DNA of 64,000 nucleotides, taken from Gammaproteobacteria bacterium (GTDB taxonomy: Bacteria > Pseudomonadota > Gammaproteobacteria > Steroidobacterales > Steroidobacteraceae). This document shows positions 24,135 through 39,715 of the stretch, in pieces; the stretch's first letter is position 1; each line of letters starts with the position of its first letter. The stretch spans positions 1 through 64,000 of the forward strand of contig JAQGOF010000091.1 in assembly GCA_028293745.1 (NCBI GenBank), written 5' to 3'. Both the position numbers and the translations under genes were made by a program. The notes beneath the pieces were generated by a model. That model had not been told where the DNA came from and did no database searches. It worked only from the letters and a program-made list of their open reading frames with translations.

Positions 24135-24215
24135 ATGGGTCGTGGAATTCTGTTGTGGCTGCTCGGCGTGCCCATCCCCGTCATCCTGCTGCTGGCGATG
24201 TGCTCGCATCACTGA
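24135..24215 (+). CDS. 26-residue single-helix membrane protein
   Basis: A tiny frame with an excellent GAGGAGA about seven bases before the ATG. It encodes MGRGILLWLLGVPIPVILLL, then a short His-ending tail. This is one transmembrane helix with an internal Pro-Ile-Pro kink, closely resembling short hypothetical proteins of the form RGILLWLLGIPIPIIIL in many proteobacteria. Function is unknown. Its 3' end overlaps the convergent GH13 gene by seven bases. Confidence 0.65.
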   Translation: MGRGILLWLLGVPIPVILLLAMCSHH

Positions 24216-25921
24216 CGGCTTGCCTTCCGCGCCCGCCCGCCTTTGGCCGGGCGGGCCGTCTCGACCTCGCTTCGATCGAGCAGGTATTCCAGGCCGCCCA
24301 CACGGTACCAGCGGTAGCCGTAGCCTTCCATGACGAGGCGATGCTTACCGGCCTCGTCAGCGCGGCTGTGATCGCTCGACAGCAGGTTGACCAGCAACCG
24401 GCCCGCATCGCCCACACCTGCCGAAAACACAATCTCCCGCGGCCTGGCGTCCAGGTTGTGGACGAACAACACTGAGTTGTTTCGCCAGTCGTACCGCATC
24501 ACCAGTATGGCGTGATCCCGGGTTGGGATGACCTCGTAGTCACCCCAGCCGATTTCCGGGACTTCCTTTCTCATCCGGATGATGCGCTCGGTCCAGTTGA
24601 GCATCGAGTTGGGATCGCGGCGTTGCTGCGCCACATTGACGTGTTCGTAACCAAACGCGCCTTTGCTGATGACGGGAACCACTGGACGCGGGTTCTTCGT
24701 GAATCCGGCATTGGGTTCATCGGACCATTGCATGGGTGTCCGGGCGGCCGTGCGCTCGGGCAGCGACAGATCGTCGCCCATTCCCAACTCATCGCCGTAA
24801 CGGATCACCGGCGTACCGGGCAGAGTGAACATCAGGCTGTAGGCAAGCTCGATGCGGCGCCGGTCACCTTCCAGCATCGGCGCGAGGCGGCGTCGGATCC
24901 CCCTGCCGTACAACTGCATCCGCGGTTCCGGGCCGAACGCTTTGAAGACTGTCTTCCCCTGCTCCGGGGTGAGTCTGCCGAGATCCAGCTCGTCATGATT
25001 GCGCAGGAACAAGCCCCACTGCGCCGTGGCGGGCCGCGGCTTGGTCGCCTCGAGCGCCTTCGCCAGGGGCCGCGAATCACTGGCGGCGAGTGCATAGAAC
25101 AGGTTCTGGTTCACCTGGAAGTTGAACATCATGTGCATCCGGTCGCCGTCCGTGCCGAAATACTCCATGTCGGTATCAGGCAGTACGTTGGCTTCGGCCA
25201 GGATGATGGAGTCGCCCTCCCGCCATTGGAGGAATTCGCGAATGGTCCGCAACATGTCGTATTGCTCCATCGGTTTCCTGATCCCGGGCCCTTTCTTCGA
25301 GATGACGAACGGCACTGCATCCATGCGAAAGCCCGAGACACCGAGCTGAATCCAGAATCCCATGATTTTCAGGATTTCAGCCTGCACGTGCGGATTGGAG
25401 GTGTTCAGGTCCGGTTGGAAGTCATAGAAGCGGTGGAAGTACCATGCGCGCGCAACCGGGTCGTACGTCCAGGTTGATTTCTGGACGCCCGGAAACACCA
25501 TCCCGCGGTTGGCATCGGGCGGCTTTTTCTTCGACCACACGTACCAGTCGCGATATCTGGAGTGTGGGTCCCGCCGCGCTTCCTTGAACCAGGGATGCTG
25601 GTTCGAAGTATGGTTCACGACGAGGTCGATGATTACCCGGATACCGCGCTGCTTCGCTGCATGCGTGAATTCAACGAAATCACCCAGCGTCCCGTAGCGG
25701 GAGTCCGAATTGTAATAGTCGGAGACATCGTAGCCGTCGTCCTTCCCCGGCGAGGACTGGATGGGCATGAGCCAGATTGCGGTGACGCCCAGTCCGTGCA
25801 GGTAGTCCAGACGGCGCATCAGGCCGTCGAAGTCTCCAATCCCATCGCCGTTGGCATCCATGAAGGTTGCCACCGACAGGCAATAGATGACCGCGTTCTT
25901 GTACCAGAGATCATTAATCAT
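24209..25921 (-). CDS. GH13 alpha-amylase family enzyme, trehalose synthase-like
   Basis: A 570-residue cytosolic protein without a signal peptide. The catalytic triad is visible: nucleophile D201 (GFRMDAVPF), acid/base E243 (ILAEANV) and D310 (RNHDELDL). It begins LWYKNAVIYCLSVATFMDAN and has the GH13 calcium-site DANGDGIGD and VVNHTS. The closest pattern is the GH13_16 trehalose synthase group, but single-domain amylosucrase- or glucosidase-like specificity cannot be excluded. I chose ATG 25921 over the in-frame TTG at 25957. It follows the TonB receptor gene on the same strand after 113 bases and may be its operon partner. Confidence 0.82.
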   Translation of the reverse strand: MINDLWYKNAVIYCLSVATFMDANGDGIGDFDGLMRRLDYLHGLGVTAIWLMPIQSSPGKDDGYDVSDYYNSDSRYGTLGDFVEFTHAAKQRGIRVIIDLVVNHTSNQHPWFKEARRDPHSRYRDWYVWSKKKPPDANRGMVFPGVQKSTWTYDPVARAWYFHRFYDFQPDLNTSNPHVQAEILKIMGFWIQLGVSGFRMDAVPFVISKKGPGIRKPMEQYDMLRTIREFLQWREGDSIILAEANVLPDTDMEYFGTDGDRMHMMFNFQVNQNLFYALAASDSRPLAKALEATKPRPATAQWGLFLRNHDELDLGRLTPEQGKTVFKAFGPEPRMQLYGRGIRRRLAPMLEGDRRRIELAYSLMFTLPGTPVIRYGDELGMGDDLSLPERTAARTPMQWSDEPNAGFTKNPRPVVPVISKGAFGYEHVNVAQQRRDPNSMLNWTERIIRMRKEVPEIGWGDYEVIPTRDHAILVMRYDWRNNSVLFVHNLDARPREIVFSAGVGDAGRLLVNLLSSDHSRADEAGKHRLVMEGYGYRWYRVGGLEYLLDRSEVETARPAKGGRARKASRQ

Positions 25922-26034
25922 GCGCGCCGTGGGAGCTGTGGAGGAGCGGTATATCAATCGCTCCGCAGGCCATCGGTTCCCAGTGGAACACGGTTTCCCT
26001 CAGCTCGAGCTCCAGGTCGCCCGATTGCCGCGGC

Positions 26035-28464
26035 TCATTGCTCCTTTAGCGAATAGCTCAGAGTGAGCCCGACCGTTCGCGGCGTCGACACGATGGCCTG
26101 GTAATTCGGACCGTAGTTGAACGGGTCCGAGTACGAGTTGATTCCGAGCTGGTTGGTAAGATTGTTGACGTAAACGGTGCTCAGCCAATGGGACCGGGTG
26201 AAGCTCAGCCTCGTGTCGACAATGGTGTACCCGCCCACCTTCGGTATGGTCGCCGAAAGCGCGGGAATGATGGAGCTTTGATAGTGAGCACTGGCTGCGA
26301 GGCGCAACTCGCCACCCGCCAGGGCAACGTGACCATACTCGACCGTGAGAGCCACGCTGGATTTGGGAGTTCCGGGCAGCGGCGTGCCCACATCTGGAAG
26401 AGGCACTGACACCCCGGCCCGCGCCAGGTCCGTTATTGATGTCAGCGCAGTCTTGTCGTACGTGTAGTCCAGCTGCCCTGTGAAGTGGTCGGTGATGGCG
26501 GCGAAAAGCTCCGTCTCGAAGCCCCGGCTGTACGCCGAACCGACGTTGACTGCTCCCGGCAGCACGAGCGGGGTGAGCTGGGCGCCCTCCTGTACGTTAT
26601 GCCACTCTATGTCGAAGACCGCCGCCGAGTACCGAAAGCGATTGAGCAAGGTTCCCTTGATGCCCACCTCATAGTTGTCAGCCTTGTCGGGCGCGAGCTT
26701 GTAGAGCTCCGGCGGGGTAGTGTAGGACACCGCCGGCTCGCTAGCGGGCAGCGCATTGACGCCGCCGCGGCGGAAGCCCTGCGACCAGGTCGCGTAGACG
26801 AGGTTCGTCCTGTTCAGCTGGTACGCGGTGTTGACCTTCCACAGTGCGCGCCGCCACGAGTCGCTCAACGATACGTTCGCAATCGAACCCGCGCCGTCAA
26901 ACAGCAGGCCGGTCTGCTGGGCCTGGGAGACGGTTTGTTTGAAGACGCGGGCGCCCCCAGTGACGCTCCAGGCTGTCGTCAGGTGATAGGTGGCCTCGCC
27001 GAACACGGCGAAATCCTTGAAGCTCGTCTCAAAGTCACCGATGTAGGCCTGGTCCTTGACGATCGGGATGCCATCGATGTAGGTCGGTGGAGAGCCGGGC
27101 GTGAAAGCTGTCTCTCCGATTCCACACTGCGATGGAGTGACACCGTCGCCTGCGCTGATCCCATAGATCGGAGCGCATGCGTTGAAGTAGTCCAGGTAAC
27201 CATTATAGAACTCGTGCTCCTGGATGTTCGTCGTCTGGTGTTTGAAAAACAGGCCTCCCACCCAGTCGAATGCGCCACCCGTCTTGGAGGCGAGACGGAT
27301 CTCCTGCGACCAGGGCTTGTCATCGAGCACATCATGTCCGGTCACCAGGATACGGGGATTGGCGCCGTACAGTGACGGATAAAAAGGAAAGTACGAGTAC
27401 AGGTGCGTGAGGTCGCTGCTCGTGTGGTTGACATGATGCGCCCACGACGTGTTCGAAGTCAGGGTAGCGAAGCCGAGCTCGTATTCTGCAGTCAGGGCCA
27501 CGAGATCCACCGTGTCCTGCGTTGACGCCCGGGTATTGTCGGTGGACTGCAATGTATCCACGCCATACAAGGGGGCAGCGTACGGGAATCCCGAAGCGGT
27601 CGAGCGCTGATGGTAGTAGGTAAGTTGCGCATGAAACGCATCGTTCGGTTTCCACAGGGCCGCAACTCGCGCCGTGCGGTATCCGTAGGCATTGACCCCC
27701 TTTTGAGAGTACGTCGCCGGCGGACTCAGCAGGTTCGTTGGATCGGCTGCAATCGGTGCGCCGGCGGAATCGAGCCGATACAGGTTCGGCTGGTTTATGA
27801 AGCCGGCCTCGTTGGTCAGACTGGCATTGAGACGCACGGCGAAGGTATCTGACAAAGGAAGATTCAGCATTCCACTGACGTCTTCATTTGGTGCGTGAGT
27901 ATGCGATGTATCGCTGATCCCAACCTCGACTTTGGCATCAAAGGCCCTGGGGTCAGGTGCGTTTTGCACGAATCGGATCGTGCCGCCCAGCGAGCCCGAG
28001 CCATACAGGGTCCCTTGCGGACCGCGCAGTATCTCCACGTGATCCAGATCCTGGAGACGCAGGTTGACGAACAACGGCGTGTCGTCGACATAGGTCGCCA
28101 CCGGCGGAACCACCGGGGTGGCCAGCGCCAGCTGACCTGCTGTTGCCTCGCTGTTCAATCCTCGAATGATCAGCGTCGCGCCGTTCACACCCCCAAAGGG
28201 TCCCTTGTCGGTAACGTTCACTCCGGCCATCGAGTGCGCAAGTGACGAGATATCCTGAATGCCGGCTTGTTCCAGTGACGCGCCAGTAACTGCCGTAATA
28301 CTGATCGGAAGATCCTGGGCCGAAACCGCCCTGCGCGTGGCCGTCACGAGGACTTCCTGCAAGCCGGCTTCCTGTACTCCGGCATCATCGGCATAGACAG
28401 CCGTGCCGTAGAGGGCAGTCAGGACCGCCGCCGTTATGGACGCAGGGGTGTTTGTTGTTTTCAT
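26035..28464 (-). CDS. TonB-dependent outer-membrane receptor (riboswitch-controlled)
   Basis: An 809-residue protein. It has a signal peptide, a TonB-box-like LQEVLVTATRR, a plug domain (about 45-165: DLPISITAVTGASLEQAGIQ, VEILRGPQGTLYGSGSLGGT) and a 22-strand barrel ending in a beta-signal (VGLTLSYSLKEQ). It imports a substrate across the outer membrane using TonB energy. The plug is of the common iron-complex/vitamin/carbohydrate type, so substrate is not readable from it. The ATG at 28464 is preceded by GGAGA. The long leader holds a ykkC-class riboswitch, pointing to guanidine-related control. Confidence 0.92.
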   Translation of the reverse strand: MKTTNTPASITAAVLTALYGTAVYADDAGVQEAGLQEVLVTATRRAVSAQDLPISITAVTGASLEQAGIQDISSLAHSMAGVNVTDKGPFGGVNGATLIIRGLNSEATAGQLALATPVVPPVATYVDDTPLFVNLRLQDLDHVEILRGPQGTLYGSGSLGGTIRFVQNAPDPRAFDAKVEVGISDTSHTHAPNEDVSGMLNLPLSDTFAVRLNASLTNEAGFINQPNLYRLDSAGAPIAADPTNLLSPPATYSQKGVNAYGYRTARVAALWKPNDAFHAQLTYYHQRSTASGFPYAAPLYGVDTLQSTDNTRASTQDTVDLVALTAEYELGFATLTSNTSWAHHVNHTSSDLTHLYSYFPFYPSLYGANPRILVTGHDVLDDKPWSQEIRLASKTGGAFDWVGGLFFKHQTTNIQEHEFYNGYLDYFNACAPIYGISAGDGVTPSQCGIGETAFTPGSPPTYIDGIPIVKDQAYIGDFETSFKDFAVFGEATYHLTTAWSVTGGARVFKQTVSQAQQTGLLFDGAGSIANVSLSDSWRRALWKVNTAYQLNRTNLVYATWSQGFRRGGVNALPASEPAVSYTTPPELYKLAPDKADNYEVGIKGTLLNRFRYSAAVFDIEWHNVQEGAQLTPLVLPGAVNVGSAYSRGFETELFAAITDHFTGQLDYTYDKTALTSITDLARAGVSVPLPDVGTPLPGTPKSSVALTVEYGHVALAGGELRLAASAHYQSSIIPALSATIPKVGGYTIVDTRLSFTRSHWLSTVYVNNLTNQLGINSYSDPFNYGPNYQAIVSTPRTVGLTLSYSLKEQ

Positions 28465-28510
28465 TGGGTCTCCGCCGGCAAGTTGACGCACTCGCGGAAG
28501 AGACCTGAAC

Positions 28511-28566
28511 GCATCGCCCGGGAAGTTCCCTGGGGGGAGATCGTCCCGGAGACACAACAGCTCTCC
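28511..28566 (-). promoter_or_regulatory. Candidate expression platform of the riboswitch
   Basis: Between the aptamer and the receptor start, the minus-strand RNA can form mutually exclusive helices. GGGAGATC of the aptamer 3' end (28574-28581) pairs perfectly with GATCTCCC at 28535-28542, and GCCCGGGA (28578-28585) pairs with TCCCGGGC at 28516-28523. A further segment, GTCTCCG (28547-28553), is the exact complement of the receptor Shine-Dalgarno region CGGAGAC (28468-28474). There is no T-tract, so translational control is more likely than termination. This is inference from base pairing. Confidence 0.45.
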
Positions 28567-28571
28567 GCAAC

Positions 28572-28682
28572 CAGATCTCCCGGGCTTTTATCCCGCCGTG
28601 TATCCGCAGGGCACGAGCGCTTGCGGACTGCCTCTCTCGGACCAGTCACCCACCCGCAGGCGGGCCGGAACCCTAGACGCAC
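28572..28682 (-). ncRNA. ykkC-class riboswitch aptamer, probably guanidine-I
   Basis: Read on the minus strand, the conserved blocks of the ykkC aptamer occur in order and spacing: CTAGGGTTCCGG (28676-28665), a short hairpin CCCG-CCTG-CGGG, GACTGGTCCGAGAG (28647-28634), a variable stem, then ACACGGC (28601-28595) and GGGATAAAAGCCCGGGAGA (28594-28576). These are the near-invariant elements of Rfam RF00442. The form fits subtype 1 (guanidine). Subtype-2 relatives bind ppGpp, PRPP or nucleotides and share parts of the core, so ligand identity needs a test. It lies about 110 bases upstream of the TonB receptor ATG. Confidence 0.88.
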
Positions 28683-28937
28683 ATTTATGCAAGTCGCTGC
28701 AAACTGCGTGCCGGATCAGGTATCGCCACCGGGAACGTGGCATTAGCCTTTGAAAATGCAAACTTACGGGTGGGTTGCGGGTTGGGTGCAAGCAGGAGCC
28801 GCCAGACACCAGGTGGCCTGACCGCACCAGCACAGAGCAGTCTGCCGGGTGTTGCCCTAACACTGCACGGTGGCAGACACTGGTCGCTCGCAGATGTCGG
28901 AAATAACTGAGCAGAAAGAAGGTACTTTACTGGCCCC

Positions 28938-30335
28938 ATGAATACCCAAAGCCCCGCGCGCCTGGAAAGCAGCACCATTCGGCCCATTCCGCTGACCGAA
29001 CGGCACGGCACGGCGGGCGACTTGTTCACCGTGTGGTTCGGCACGAACTTCATGCTGTTGACCATTGTCACCGGCGGTCTCGCGGTAACCGTCTTCGCGC
29101 TGCCGTTCGGGTGGGCATTGGTCGGCCTGAGCGTGGGCAACCTGGTCGGTGCGATCTTCATGGCGCTCCATTCGGCACAGGGTCCCAGGCTCGGCGTTCC
29201 ACAGATGGTCCAGACACGTGGCCAGTTCGGCTCCCTTGGATCCGTTCTGGTCGTTGCCATCGTGCTCGTCATGTATGTGGGATTCCTGGCGTCCAACCTG
29301 GTCCTCGGTGGCGAGGCGCTGGTCAGTATTGCCCCGGGCATGCCGGATACACCGGGCATTGCGGTGGTTGCGGTATTGAGTGTCATCGCCGCGGTCTTCG
29401 GATACGACGTGATTCATACCTATGCGCGGGTCACGACCTACATTGCGTGCGCCGCCCTGGCCGTCACTTTTGCGTGGATCATCTGGGTGCATGGCCTGCC
29501 CGCGGATTTTCTGTCACGCAACACCCTGAACCTCTCAGGGTTCCTGAGCACCGTTTCGACGGCGGCGCTCTGGCAGATCGCTTACGCGCCCTACGTGTCC
29601 GATTATTCGCGCTACATGCCGGCCGACACGGGCGCACGATCCGCCTTCTGGGCGAGTTTCTGGGGCTGTTCTCTGGGTTCCATGCTGCCCATGGCCCTGG
29701 GAGCGATGGTGGGCATCGCAGCTCCCAAGGGAGCAAGTCTCGTCGCGGGGCTTGCGGCATTGACCCATGGCATAGCTCCGTTGATCCTCATAGTTCTATC
29801 CGTTGGCGTAGCGACGGCCAATGCCATGAATCTCTACTGCGGCGCTCTATCCACCATGACGCTCGGCCAGACTCTGGTTCCGAGCTGGTCGCCCGGAGCG
29901 ACCGCCCGAACCGTCATCTCACTGGCTATTTTCGCGCTGTCACTGACGGGAGCATTGCTCGGAAAGAACTCCTTCATGGTCAATTACGAGAATTTCATAC
30001 TGCTCCTGCTATACGTACTCGTGCCGTGGACGGCGATCAACCTGGTTGACTACTACCTGCTGAGGCATGGCCAGTACGATGTCGATTCCTTCTTTCGGCA
30101 TGATGGCGGCATCTACGGCCGGATCAACGGCGTGGCGGTCGGCTGTTATCTGTTGGGAATTCTCGTGCAACTGCCATTCATCAACACGCCGCTGTACCGG
30201 GGTTTCATCGCCCGCGCACTGGGCGGGGTCGATCTGTCCTGGATCGCCGGCCTTGCCATCACGGGCCCTGCCTACTATTGGCTCGCCAAACGGTTAACAT
30301 CCGAGTCGGAAGCCGTTGTCGCTGGAGCAAAGTAG
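28938..30335 (+). CDS. NCS1-family permease (cytosine/purine/allantoin type)
   Basis: A 465-residue inner-membrane protein with about 12 membrane helices. The N-terminus has the NCS1 entry region (ERHGTAGDLFTVWFGTNFML), then QMVQTRGQFGSLGSVLVV and APYVSDYSRYMPADTG, typical of the CodB/purine-cytosine permease branch. It imports nucleobases or related nitrogen-rich compounds with protons or sodium. It is divergent from the riboswitch-controlled TonB receptor and is immediately followed by an SDR gene. Together these suggest an uptake and catabolic unit for a nitrogen compound. Confidence 0.88.
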   Translation: MNTQSPARLESSTIRPIPLTERHGTAGDLFTVWFGTNFMLLTIVTGGLAVTVFALPFGWALVGLSVGNLVGAIFMALHSAQGPRLGVPQMVQTRGQFGSLGSVLVVAIVLVMYVGFLASNLVLGGEALVSIAPGMPDTPGIAVVAVLSVIAAVFGYDVIHTYARVTTYIACAALAVTFAWIIWVHGLPADFLSRNTLNLSGFLSTVSTAALWQIAYAPYVSDYSRYMPADTGARSAFWASFWGCSLGSMLPMALGAMVGIAAPKGASLVAGLAALTHGIAPLILIVLSVGVATANAMNLYCGALSTMTLGQTLVPSWSPGATARTVISLAIFALSLTGALLGKNSFMVNYENFILLLLYVLVPWTAINLVDYYLLRHGQYDVDSFFRHDGGIYGRINGVAVGCYLLGILVQLPFINTPLYRGFIARALGGVDLSWIAGLAITGPAYYWLAKRLTSESEAVVAGAK

Positions 30336-31148
30336 GTGGACCTCGAACTGCAACGACGCCGCGCCGTGGTGACTGGCGCGTCGCGTGGAATAGGCCGCGC
30401 CATTGCCCTCGCACTCGCCGCTGAAGGCGCGGATGTTGTGGCAGTCGCGCGCGACCGGGGGAAACTGGAGGAGCTCGCAGCAACAGCGGCTGGGGTTGGG
30501 GCCGGGCCCGAGGGCAACGCCGGGGCCAGCGCCGGAGCCGGGACGATCACCGTCCGCGCGGCCGATCTCTCGCAGGCTACGGCCGTTCAAGGCCTCACTG
30601 CGGAGCTGGAGACAGCCGACATCCTTGTATTCAACACCGGCGGTCCTCCTTTCGGCACAGCCGCGGAAACTACCGACGCGGTTTGGACCGCGCAGTTCGA
30701 GGCAATGTTTTTGAGCGCGATCCGGCTGACGCGGCTTGCGCTCCCGGGCATGCGCCGGCGCGGCTTCGGTCGCATCATGCTCGTGGTCTCCTCGGGTGTG
30801 ATTCAGCCGATTCCCAACCTGGCCATTTCAAATGCCATCCGCTCAGCCCTCGTCGGGTGGGCAAAGACCCTTGCCGGCGAGGTCGCAGGCGACGGTGTCA
30901 CGGTGAATTGCCTGGCTCCCGGACGGATCGCCACAGACCGCGTTGTAGAGTTCGACCAGAACCGTGCCCGTCGCGAAGGAATCAGCGTCGAAGAAGTCCA
31001 GAAGCAGTCGCGTTCGGCTATTCCCGTTGGCCGTTACGGCGCAGCAGATGAGTTTGCAGCCTTGGCGGCTTTCCTGGCGAGCCCGCGTTCTTCGTACATG
31101 ACTGGAAGTGTCATCCGAATCGACGGGGGCATGATTCGCAGCGTGTGA
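30336..31148 (+). CDS. Short-chain dehydrogenase/reductase with altered active site
   Basis: A 270-residue Rossmann protein. The cofactor motif is TGASRGIG (13-20), the core Asn is in VFNTGG, and a C-terminal GSVIRIDGG closes the fold. The catalytic YxxxK is absent: the aligned positions read SNAIR (165-169), with Ser for Tyr and Arg for Lys, while Ser152/153 is kept. This occurs in a divergent SDR branch annotated as 3-oxoacyl-ACP reductase-like. The start is GTG directly after the permease TAG, so the two are one operon. An Ala/Gly-rich insert lies at about 52-70. Confidence 0.85.
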   Translation: MDLELQRRRAVVTGASRGIGRAIALALAAEGADVVAVARDRGKLEELAATAAGVGAGPEGNAGASAGAGTITVRAADLSQATAVQGLTAELETADILVFNTGGPPFGTAAETTDAVWTAQFEAMFLSAIRLTRLALPGMRRRGFGRIMLVVSSGVIQPIPNLAISNAIRSALVGWAKTLAGEVAGDGVTVNCLAPGRIATDRVVEFDQNRARREGISVEEVQKQSRSAIPVGRYGAADEFAALAAFLASPRSSYMTGSVIRIDGGMIRSV

Positions 31149-37543: not shown

Positions 37544-39715
37544 CTACTCCCCCGCCGGGGCATGGACATCGCGCTGCCGCGGCTTACCTTTGCCGTGCAG
37601 CGCTTCGTCCTCTATCAAACGTTTGCGCACGTACAGGAAGCGGATTACTTCGTATTCGAACGGCGAGCCTGTCGAATAGTAACGGAAGTCAGTGTTGGCG
37701 CGGGTATCGACGGCATTCACAGTGCTCAGCCCGTATGACTGGTAGCCACGATACAAGTCGGCCACGTTGACGCCGTAGTAGATACCATAGTCCCCAAGAT
37801 ATCCAACACCGTCACGTAGCGTTGAGGGACCAAGGATAGGCATGACGAGATAGGGGCCGGGATGTAAGCCCCAGGTTGAAAGCGTGGCGCTGAACCCTGT
37901 TGGCGCGTTCTGCAGCTTGAACCGGGTTGCGACGTCGAACAGTCCGCCAATACCGACCGTGCTGTTGATGACAAAGCGGCCGATGCTGCGAGCTCCTCCG
38001 GGGATGCGCGCCTGCAAGCCGTAGTTCACCACGCTGTCCACTTCGGACAGGTTTGAAAAGAAATTGTGAATCCCGGAGCGAATGGGAGATGGCACGCGCC
38101 GATAGCCGTTCGCCACCGGCAGAAAGATCGCCTCGTCGAACCGCGCGTTGAAGCGGTACGTGAAGCGATTGAGCCTCTCCCAGGGATCGTACGTGTACAT
38201 GGACGGGGCGTCGGCCGTGGTCAGTGGCACCAGCGGTTCAATGTCTTCCTGTTCGCTTGCGCCGGACACCGAGGTCGCGGATGCCGGCGACGCCGCGGGT
38301 GCTGCCGGGGTGCCAGGTGGTGCCGGGGTCTCGGCCGCCGAGCTCTCGTGGCGCGATCTCTCAGGTGGCAAGGCGCCGCCCGGCCCCTTCCACCGCCCGG
38401 CCAACATATCGAGCATGTCGGCAATCTGCCGCGGCTCGCCGAGATTGCCGAGGTGGCCGCCGTGATCATACACGGCAATGCGCTCACCCAGCGTCGATTG
38501 CAGCCAGGCCAGCTCGGGCCTGTCGAGGATCACATCATCACTGTTGGTTTGCGCGTAGTAGTCCGGATTGTTGTGCAGACTGTCACCAACAATGTCCAGC
38601 CGGCTGTCCGCCAGCAGGGACCCGGGTGTTGCATCGGGCCGGCGAGCCAGGTAGTAAGGGGCGAAAACGTTCCAGAAATATTCCGAGAAAGGTTTATCGC
38701 GCAGCGTACGTGCGATCCCTTCCAGCGAGTCGCCGACGCGTGGCGGATGTTCTGGATCGACCACGACACCGGTGCGAGCGTATATATCACCTGCGAAGAA
38801 CACGTTGATCAACGCAATGCGGAACGTCAGCGCAATGGCCGCCGAGAAATCCGCATCAGTATTGAGCACACTCCCCGCAGCTGCGAGCACTTCGGTGCCG
38901 ATCTGAACTTTCTCCGATGCCCGGTAGTAGTCGGCAAGCCCCGCGTACAGCCTGCGATAAAGCTTCTCGATACCCGCATCTCCGGGGCCGATGCTCGCCG
39001 CAAACAACTTGTCCAGCCGGTCCATGGATGCAAACAGGCTGACCGGCGGATTGATCATCACCGCCCGGTGGATGTTCAACTTGCCTTCGGTGGCATCGAT
39101 CGACTTGATGACGGCCGCATTGGCCGCTCCGAGGCTGTAACCCAGCACGTCTATGTCAGTGATGCGGATTCGATGCGGCAGATGCGCAATGATCTGTTGC
39201 ATCGCCGCGTATAGATCCCGGCTGTCCTGGCGCAGATCGCCGGCCACGCCGGTACTCGAAGCCGCCACGATAAATCCCGGGAACGTAGGCGACGGCAGAG
39301 TCAGTACGTGGTATCCGGCGCCATAGAGCGCAGCGCGCAAGATCGAGATCTTCGCAGTGTTGCCGTCGCTTCCCGTGCCCGATATAACAACCGCCAGCGG
39401 CGCGGGGTGGTCCTGCGCGGAAAACCATACGCGCAACTTTCGATCGAACCAGAATACCTCCGGCACTGGCCGTGCCCAGGGCACCGCGATATTGATCTCC
39501 CGCAGCGGCACGGTCTGTGGCAGCGGTGCGAGATCCTGGGGCGGCGTCCCGAAGACAGTCGCGCGCAGCGCCGCAGAGTCTGCAAGACCGGTTGGAGGCC
39601 CGGGATCGGAAAATTCTACGGCGGGTTGAGCGGCGGCAGCGAGGCCGGTCAGGCAAAGCGTGAGCAGGCTCAATCCGTGCGCGAGCCCAGCGGCTATTTC
39701 GAGGCCTCCCAGCAC
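37544..39715 (-). CDS. Alpha/beta-hydrolase fused to MlaA (VacJ) lipid-transport domain
   Basis: A 723-residue exported protein. After a signal peptide (to about residue 30), residues 70-440 form an alpha/beta-hydrolase with nucleophile elbow GYSLG (Ser194) and a likely catalytic His in YDHGGHLGN (about 418-421). A Pro/Ala/Ser linker (445-500) joins it to an MlaA domain at 505-710 (DPWERLNRFTYRFNARFDEA, NSTVGIGGLFDVATRF, TLSTWGLHPGPYLVMPILGP). MlaA removes misplaced phospholipids from the outer-membrane outer leaflet. The fused hydrolase could act on lipids in the same place. There is no lipobox, unlike E. coli MlaA. The start is GTG 39715, overlapping the upstream gene by 22 bases. Confidence 0.88.
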   Translation of the reverse strand: MLGGLEIAAGLAHGLSLLTLCLTGLAAAAQPAVEFSDPGPPTGLADSAALRATVFGTPPQDLAPLPQTVPLREINIAVPWARPVPEVFWFDRKLRVWFSAQDHPAPLAVVISGTGSDGNTAKISILRAALYGAGYHVLTLPSPTFPGFIVAASSTGVAGDLRQDSRDLYAAMQQIIAHLPHRIRITDIDVLGYSLGAANAAVIKSIDATEGKLNIHRAVMINPPVSLFASMDRLDKLFAASIGPGDAGIEKLYRRLYAGLADYYRASEKVQIGTEVLAAAGSVLNTDADFSAAIALTFRIALINVFFAGDIYARTGVVVDPEHPPRVGDSLEGIARTLRDKPFSEYFWNVFAPYYLARRPDATPGSLLADSRLDIVGDSLHNNPDYYAQTNSDDVILDRPELAWLQSTLGERIAVYDHGGHLGNLGEPRQIADMLDMLAGRWKGPGGALPPERSRHESSAAETPAPPGTPAAPAASPASATSVSGASEQEDIEPLVPLTTADAPSMYTYDPWERLNRFTYRFNARFDEAIFLPVANGYRRVPSPIRSGIHNFFSNLSEVDSVVNYGLQARIPGGARSIGRFVINSTVGIGGLFDVATRFKLQNAPTGFSATLSTWGLHPGPYLVMPILGPSTLRDGVGYLGDYGIYYGVNVADLYRGYQSYGLSTVNAVDTRANTDFRYYSTGSPFEYEVIRFLYVRKRLIEDEALHGKGKPRQRDVHAPAGE

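Follow-up and report, generated by a model that had tools for sequence, protein, structure and literature searches.

A guanidine-I riboswitch precedes a TonB-dependent receptor gene: a possible guanidine-responsive outer-membrane gate

Why would a guanidine-sensing RNA stand before the gene of an outer-membrane receptor, and what would such a receptor import? The question is raised by a stretch of DNA of 64,000 nucleotides that was analyzed at full length and is referred to here as the window. The targets of guanidine riboswitches named in the available text of the sources are exporters, ABC and APC permeases, carboxylase, deiminase, hydrolases and guanidinase (PMC12186494, PMC11410670, PMC12508155, PMC7266159), and the guanidine-I class is described as an ON switch in the accessible part of PMC6031431. 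In contrast to these targets, the gene preceded by the window riboswitch encodes an outer-membrane receptor. The initial annotation had taken TonB-dependent receptors (TBDTs) not to be an established target of the guanidine-I class, and the literature searched, as far as its text was available, agrees with this. Our search, which covered few subscription papers, returned no report, within the accessible text, of a guanidine riboswitch with a TBDT, sigma-54 or NtrC; the available portions of PMC10119275, PMC9549626, PMC9723704, PMC12593503, PMC11277574, PMC10949472 and PMC6235884 tie a guanidine riboswitch to neither a TBDT nor sigma-54. Relative to the literature searched, the RNA class in the window is known and its target is of a new kind, with induction rather than repression to be expected.

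When the complete window was searched with cmscan (Rfam 15), the Guanidine-I family (RF00442) was placed at 28687-28575 on the minus strand, with 89.6 bits against a cut-off of 63 and an E value of 9e-15. The alignment covers the model from end to end (positions 1-107 of 107), and RF00442 was the sole Rfam family in the window to reach its gathering threshold; in a scan of the 521-base leader at E <= 10, no family besides RF00442 came near its cut-off. The ykkC/guanidine-I aptamer initially annotated on the minus strand at 28572-28682 was thus confirmed as an element by a full-length covariance-model match above cut-off, with its limits corrected by a few bases. It is the same as guanidine-I (ykkC subtype 1) in sequence and fold over its full length, and it is the one RF00442 match found in the host genome (6.9 Mb, 91% complete). 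We aligned 15 aptamers from the host's bacterial family, 10 of receptor loci and 5 of ABC loci (G1110 and the ABC loci L023 and L026 were omitted). The alignment has 63 invariant columns, and two stems show compensatory variation. In these stems both sides changed in 35 cells, a number equalled in 0 of 500 shuffles, and slid controls gave 5 to 22.

The ykkC fold family also includes subtype 2 RNAs (ppGpp, PRPP or nucleoside diphosphate), and the shared fold is the point in favor of assigning the window aptamer to them. According to the accessible text of PMC6031431, a P0 helix that joins the aptamer ends marks the PRPP/ppGpp types, and base A46 (adenosine) separates subtype 1 from subtypes 2a/2b. 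Among 11 loci, no covariation of the flanks indicative of a P0 helix was detected (9656 of 20000 permutations), and single loci can pair here by chance, the value for the window being -16.6 kcal/mol. Furthermore, the core letters of the receptor-locus aptamers are those of the aptamers preceding guanidine ABC genes. The RF00442 score, the core letters and the absent P0 covariation support the initial view that the window RNA behaves as a guanidine-I aptamer and not as subtype 2, and guanidine is its expected ligand. The subtype 2 reading, disfavored by core identity, by the lack of a covarying P0 helix and by a guanidine gene context, is in our estimate highly improbable.

The next gene on the strand of the aptamer encodes a TBDT of 809 amino acids (26035-28464, minus strand), with a Plug domain (PF07715, 57.7 bits) and a TonB_dep_Rec_b-barrel domain (PF00593, 123.7 bits), both above cut-off. 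Its ATG at 28464 lies 110 nt past the aptamer, which matches the distance of about 110 bases first proposed. The protein resembles models of siderophore, haem, B12 and similar receptors, all below cut-off, and is distantly similar to solved siderophore-type receptors, with only 53 bits for its best solved relative. Transcribed divergently is an NCS1 permease gene of the nucleobase/allantoin type (28938-30335, plus strand; PF02133, 175.5 bits), the product of which is a possible inner-membrane partner of the receptor; directly after it, a domain search identified an SDR dehydrogenase (30336-31148, plus strand). The window receptor shares no operon with degradation genes. Directly after the receptor, at 24209-25957, lies a trehalose-synthase-like enzyme (TIGR02456, 582 bits, below the cut-off of 678). 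Elsewhere in the window, at 37544-39715, an open frame of 723 amino acids appears by eye to be a fusion of an alpha/beta-hydrolase-like and an MlaA-like lipoprotein portion.

The order of riboswitch and receptor recurs. The host's family yielded 30 RF00442 matches, distributed over 26 of 217 genomes, one of them below cut-off. For 10 of the 30, the window included, a TBDT is the first recognizable gene downstream (window, G027, G013, G314, G258, G1075, G1070, G1104, G1103 and G1110); in G314 a frame of 35 codons lies between riboswitch and receptor. Nine of these ten receptors belong to the lineage of the window receptor, the eight besides the window being 59-80% identical over the parts compared, and that of G027, only 25% identical, belongs to another. 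The remaining 20 matches comprise 14 before an ABC substrate-binding protein, 3 before a DUF1989 pair, G1074 and G1076, in which other genes come first, and L138, the match below cut-off, which shows no recognizable motif, has no placement and was scored as not preceding a TBDT. In G1076 the riboswitch is followed by a frame of 88 codons, a fatty-acid-hydroxylase-type gene and then a relative of the G027 receptor. The first codons of this second-type receptor resemble the start of the hydroxylase (L144, 5726-9735), and G1074 carries a shortened leader followed by the hydroxylase alone (L143, 8900-9937). The riboswitch-linked receptor gene of G1070 lacks its middle (L145, 8597-9502), and no guanidine carboxylase was found in that genome.

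Outside the family, a TBDT followed RF00442 in none of 90 sampled matches (37 at class level and 53 at phylum level, three of the latter below cut-off; about 1.5 kb downstream), as judged with a plug profile for which 22 plug stretches of these bacteria were used; very distant TBDTs could escape such a profile. The difference between 10 of 30 and 0 of 90 corresponds to a Fisher value of 2.6e-7, with related loci not being independent. In the samples searched, the arrangement recurs only in the bacterial family of the host, within a group of uncultured gammaproteobacteria. The patchy presence of the riboswitch in the receptor lineage, detailed below, and the broken receptor of G1070 would fit a riboswitch that has decayed or lies idle and does not affect expression of the receptor. 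Against this stand the invariant core and the covarying stems, maintained across receptors that are 59-80% identical, and we give this explanation very little credence.

The genes around these riboswitches connect the receptor to guanidine catabolism. Guanidine-carboxylase genes adjoin the riboswitch and the TBDT gene in three loci. In G013 a single strand carries, in this order, the gene of a DUF1989-type protein, those of carboxylase and allophanate hydrolase, the ABC genes, and then riboswitch and receptor; G1103 has carboxylase, allophanate hydrolase and ABC genes, followed on the same strand by riboswitch and receptor, and the two groups are separated by an unassigned frame on the opposite strand; and G027 has the order riboswitch, receptor, small frame, DUF1989-type pair and carboxyltransferase part of the carboxylase. 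The host genome contains a guanidine carboxylase, split over two contig ends, as well as allophanate hydrolase, a DUF1989 pair and ABC-type genes, the last assigned by similarity to those of G258. A guanidine-II riboswitch stands just before the host carboxylase (L037 13155-13203, contig C153; 47.3 bits, cut-off 32), and this locus has no guanidine-I copy. Nor was there a guanidine-I match between the ABC and DUF1989 genes of the host, unlike in G258. The DUF1989 family is PF09347, from which carboxyguanidine deiminases are drawn, and one Asp distinguishes guanidine carboxylase from urea carboxylase, both according to the accessible text of PMC11410670. All six carboxylases compared, that of the host included, have an Asp in the diagnostic segment, its position being matched by eye from neighboring residues.

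A carboxylase was found in 10 of the 11 genomes with a riboswitch-TBDT locus, the exception being G1070 with its broken receptor, and in 1 of 7 genomes that have a lineage receptor and are devoid of any RF00442 match (Fisher 0.0025; draft genomes may miss genes). G1070 was kept in this count, and G1074, in which the riboswitch precedes another gene and a carboxylase is present, was omitted. As most loci are metagenome-assembled, missing genes may be gaps. Gene context and co-occurrence with guanidine carboxylase back a link to guanidine catabolism, in line with the uptake of guanidine or a guanidino compound suggested in the initial annotation; the substrate transported is our own deduction. 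The other suggestion of that annotation, relief from a guanidine-linked signal, gained no support.

What the receptor carries may be approached through its relatives. An alignment of four receptors, used as query against named genomes, retrieved 15 loci with 56-77% identity and one partial locus. The titles of these 16 loci refer to Gammaproteobacteria or Proteobacteria MAGs, and for six of them the isolate is named bog or palsa. Of the 16 loci found by sequence, five have RF00442 upstream (G258, G314, G013, G1104 and G1075) and 11 do not. The riboswitch as a fixed trait of the lineage receptor was consequently rejected, and the receptor tree needs two changes of riboswitch label. Since 11 of 16 lineage loci have no riboswitch, the receptor substrate need not be guanidine.

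We compiled the neighboring genes over 20 lineage loci, which vary in length and of which some come from one genome (Pfam was run on representatives). An NCS1 permease gene is near the receptor in 11 of the 20; an arginase-family enzyme, a carbon-nitrogen hydrolase and an ArgE-type deacylase each occur in 4, an HpaB-type monooxygenase occurs in 5, as do RidA and DUF1028 proteins, and a TetR-type regulator occurs in 5 loci, none of which has the riboswitch. Compared with solved proteins, the arginase-family enzyme of G314 scored 375 bits with 3-guanidinopropionase, 293 with guanidinobutyrase and 166 with guanidinase. The set of ArgE-type deacylase, HpaB monooxygenase, flavin reductase, RidA and DUF1028 recurs near the receptor (L019 13268-18368, and similarly L142, L146 and L148) and resembles a pathway for degrading a nitrogen compound. 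Group II intron matches were observed near a riboswitch-less lineage receptor (L049 18383-20750). Because of its neighbor genes, and because the G314 enzyme is closest to 3-guanidinopropionase, we take the lineage to serve, by all appearances, in the uptake of a guanidino compound or a related nitrogen compound. Some hosts may turn its substrate into urea and others into guanidine, and the guanidine-using hosts would have placed the receptor under a guanidine riboswitch.

Alternatively, the receptor might import free guanidinium itself, in hosts whose porins are too narrow or too scarce for micromolar guanidine. The adjoining carboxylase genes in G013, G1103 and G027 and the co-occurrence of carboxylase with the riboswitch-TBDT pair would suit this explanation. 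It is difficult to reconcile with lineage receptors in genomes in which neither carboxylase (6 of 7) nor an RF00442 match (7 of 7) was found, with the absence of a TBDT at 90 of 90 riboswitch loci outside the family, and with the amide and guanidino-acid hydrolases and the monooxygenase that neighbor several loci. We therefore regard it as unlikely. Free guanidine would be neither the only nor the likeliest substrate, because close riboswitch-less orthologues occur in genomes where no carboxylase was found.

Regarding transcription, a sigma-54-type -24/-12 promoter, CGGCACGCAGTTTGCA, is predicted at 28698-28713 on the minus strand, ending 10 nt before the aptamer. It agrees at 11 of 12 positions with what we take to be the -24/-12 consensus and is the only match of at least 11/12 on that strand of the 64-kb window; under the spacing rule that we assume, the start would be at about 28687, that is, at about the first aptamer base. 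With a threshold of at least 10/12 positions within 45 nt of the aptamer, 26 of the 29 loci of the family carried a sigma-54-like site, whether of the receptor or the ABC type, against 0.07 expected from shuffles. Outside the family, such a site was seen at 3 of the 29 loci tested at class level and at 5 of the 27 tested at phylum level. Among 10 riboswitch-less loci, 9 had no such promoter above chance and L051 was borderline. No sigma-70-like promoter was seen in window 28300-28960.

Further upstream, at 28823-28839 (minus strand), an NtrC-like inverted repeat agrees at 9 of 12 positions with TGCACC-N5-GGTGCA, presumably the NtrC consensus. Such repeats are located 120-180 nt upstream of the aptamer in 17 of 28 family loci, as compared with 1.0 expected from shuffles; the distance range was set once 10 loci had been inspected, and one family locus with too little upstream sequence was omitted. 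The 11 loci devoid of the repeat include G1074, G1076, G1070 and G1104. The host genome has two sigma-54 genes. Judged from these motifs, nitrogen control of receptor transcription is probable, and the sigma-54-like promoter is presumably the one in use.

Such control is general for nitrogen starvation, and would therefore also be compatible with a receptor for an unrelated nutrient, such as a metal chelate, with guanidine as a mere cue for a nitrogen-scavenging state. The likeness of the window receptor solely to siderophore, haem, B12 and similar models, below cut-off, and its distant likeness to solved siderophore-type receptors point in the same direction. We nevertheless consider an unrelated nutrient quite improbable: two distant TBDT types stand behind the same riboswitch, and the neighbor genes handle guanidino or amide compounds.

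Between aptamer and receptor, all on the minus strand, the leader contains a series of segments that can pair in alternative ways. Segment A (GGGAGATC, 28574-28581) lies at the aptamer's 3' end and has a complement, segment C (GATCTCCC, 28535-28542), with which it can pair, as seen in sequence and folds. Segment B5 (28561-28570), which resembles the Shine-Dalgarno region, has two possible partners, B3 and E; B3 and C5 overlap (28544-28552), and C5 pairs with segment D (TCCCGG, 28518-28523). Segment E (28494-28505) is a possible anti-Shine-Dalgarno element that pairs in the unconstrained fold with segment F, the Shine-Dalgarno region (GCGGAGACC, 28467-28475). This layout is common to eleven leaders and, by eye, is not present in seven ABC leaders.

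Swap tests, in which partners were exchanged between loci and counts are given out of 20000, were carried out on 10 leaders, the broken G1070 leader being omitted, and on the 8 leaders in which the first start codon is that of an intact receptor (G314 and G1076, with another frame first, omitted). The counts for 10 and 8 leaders, respectively, were 1 and 1 for B5:B3, 7 and 36 for C5:D, 182 and 756 for B5:E, and 225 and 917 for E:F. Control pairs gave 5117 and 10830 (A:E), 13783 and 14362 (C:F), and 7532 and 6842 (B3:F). The A:C pair, with 1580 and 1061, is uninformative, because A belongs to the invariant aptamer and the pair cannot covary. These data support the mutually exclusive helices B5:B3 and C5:D, and are suggestive, more weakly, of B5:E and E:F, which would carry the signal to the ribosome site. 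A two-state platform shared by the leaders is accordingly possible and in part supported.

The unconstrained fold of the window leader corresponds to the masked set (-65.7 kcal/mol). Equilibrium folding failed as proof of a switch: with A held unpaired, the ribosome site opened in only 3 of 11 leaders, with a clear margin in G1103 alone, so the switch, if real, would be kinetic or would need the folded aptamer. Intrinsic termination was rejected as the platform, with no terminator-like site at 28300-28960 and no T-run of at least 4 in 9 of 11 leaders.

Considering all of the above, we favor as reasonably probable the explanation that the window receptor is a substrate-inducible outer-membrane uptake gene, with a nitrogen-limited sigma-54 start, a guanidine switch, import by the receptor and a carboxylase as its parts. 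Under nitrogen limitation, an NtrC-type activator and sigma-54 would start the transcript at about the first aptamer base. Without guanidine, the 3' end of the aptamer would pair with C, hairpin B5:B3 would form, and the free segment E would mask the receptor's ribosome site. Binding of guanidine would keep the 3' end in the aptamer, C5:D and B5:E would form instead, and the freed ribosome site would allow the receptor to be made. The receptor would import either guanidine or, as we think more likely, a larger guanidino compound that yields guanidine when it is degraded. The inner membrane would be crossed by way of the NCS1 permease, the guanidine ABC importer or both, and guanidine carboxylase would lead from guanidine to ammonia. 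That guanidinium is small enough for porins counts against this model. Its computational basis consists of the class of the aptamer, the recurrent gene order, the sites resembling a promoter and an NtrC target, the covariation of B5:B3 and C5:D, and the host carboxylase; the direction of switching and the transported substrate we infer. More tentatively, at somewhat less than even chances, we propose a guanidino-compound outer-membrane gate in which two distant TBDT lineages stand behind an AND gate for nitrogen hunger and guanidine, made up of NtrC-like site, sigma-54, guanidine-I aptamer and two-state platform, and feed an NCS1 permease and a guanidine-freeing pathway.

There are cases of thiamin riboswitches before TonB-dependent transporters. 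Cobalamin riboswitches before such transporters are likewise known from the available text of PMC9723704 and PMC10949472, and share with the window the riboswitch leader on a TBDT gene. The cobalamin systems exert negative feedback, as described in the accessible part of PMC10949472, whereas the window switch should raise uptake with ligand; unlike theirs, the transcription of the window receptor looks nitrogen-controlled. Operons of Raoultella, Klebsiella and Vreelandella combine guanidine-I and -II riboswitches, an ABC importer, a deiminase pair (PF09347), carboxylase and allophanate hydrolase (PMC12186494, PMC12508155, available text). The same kinds of genes occur in the host or its kin, and no outer-membrane component is described for these operons in the accessible text of both papers. 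New here are the sigma-54-like promoter, the NtrC-like site and the shared, possible two-state leader platform.

Where guanidine comes from in nature is an unsettled matter according to the available text of PMC12186494. The present data suggest that some bacteria harvest an external guanidine-type compound at a level worth an energized outer-membrane transporter, and they offer a receptor, a permease and candidate hydrolases, with a ligand that is directly testable. If the model is true, the guanidine regulon would extend to the outer membrane, and nitrogen-starvation transcription and a ligand-sensing RNA would be stacked on one gene. This suggests that a guanidine-type nitrogen source has an outer-membrane gate of its own in these cells, opened only when nitrogen is needed and guanidine is sensed.
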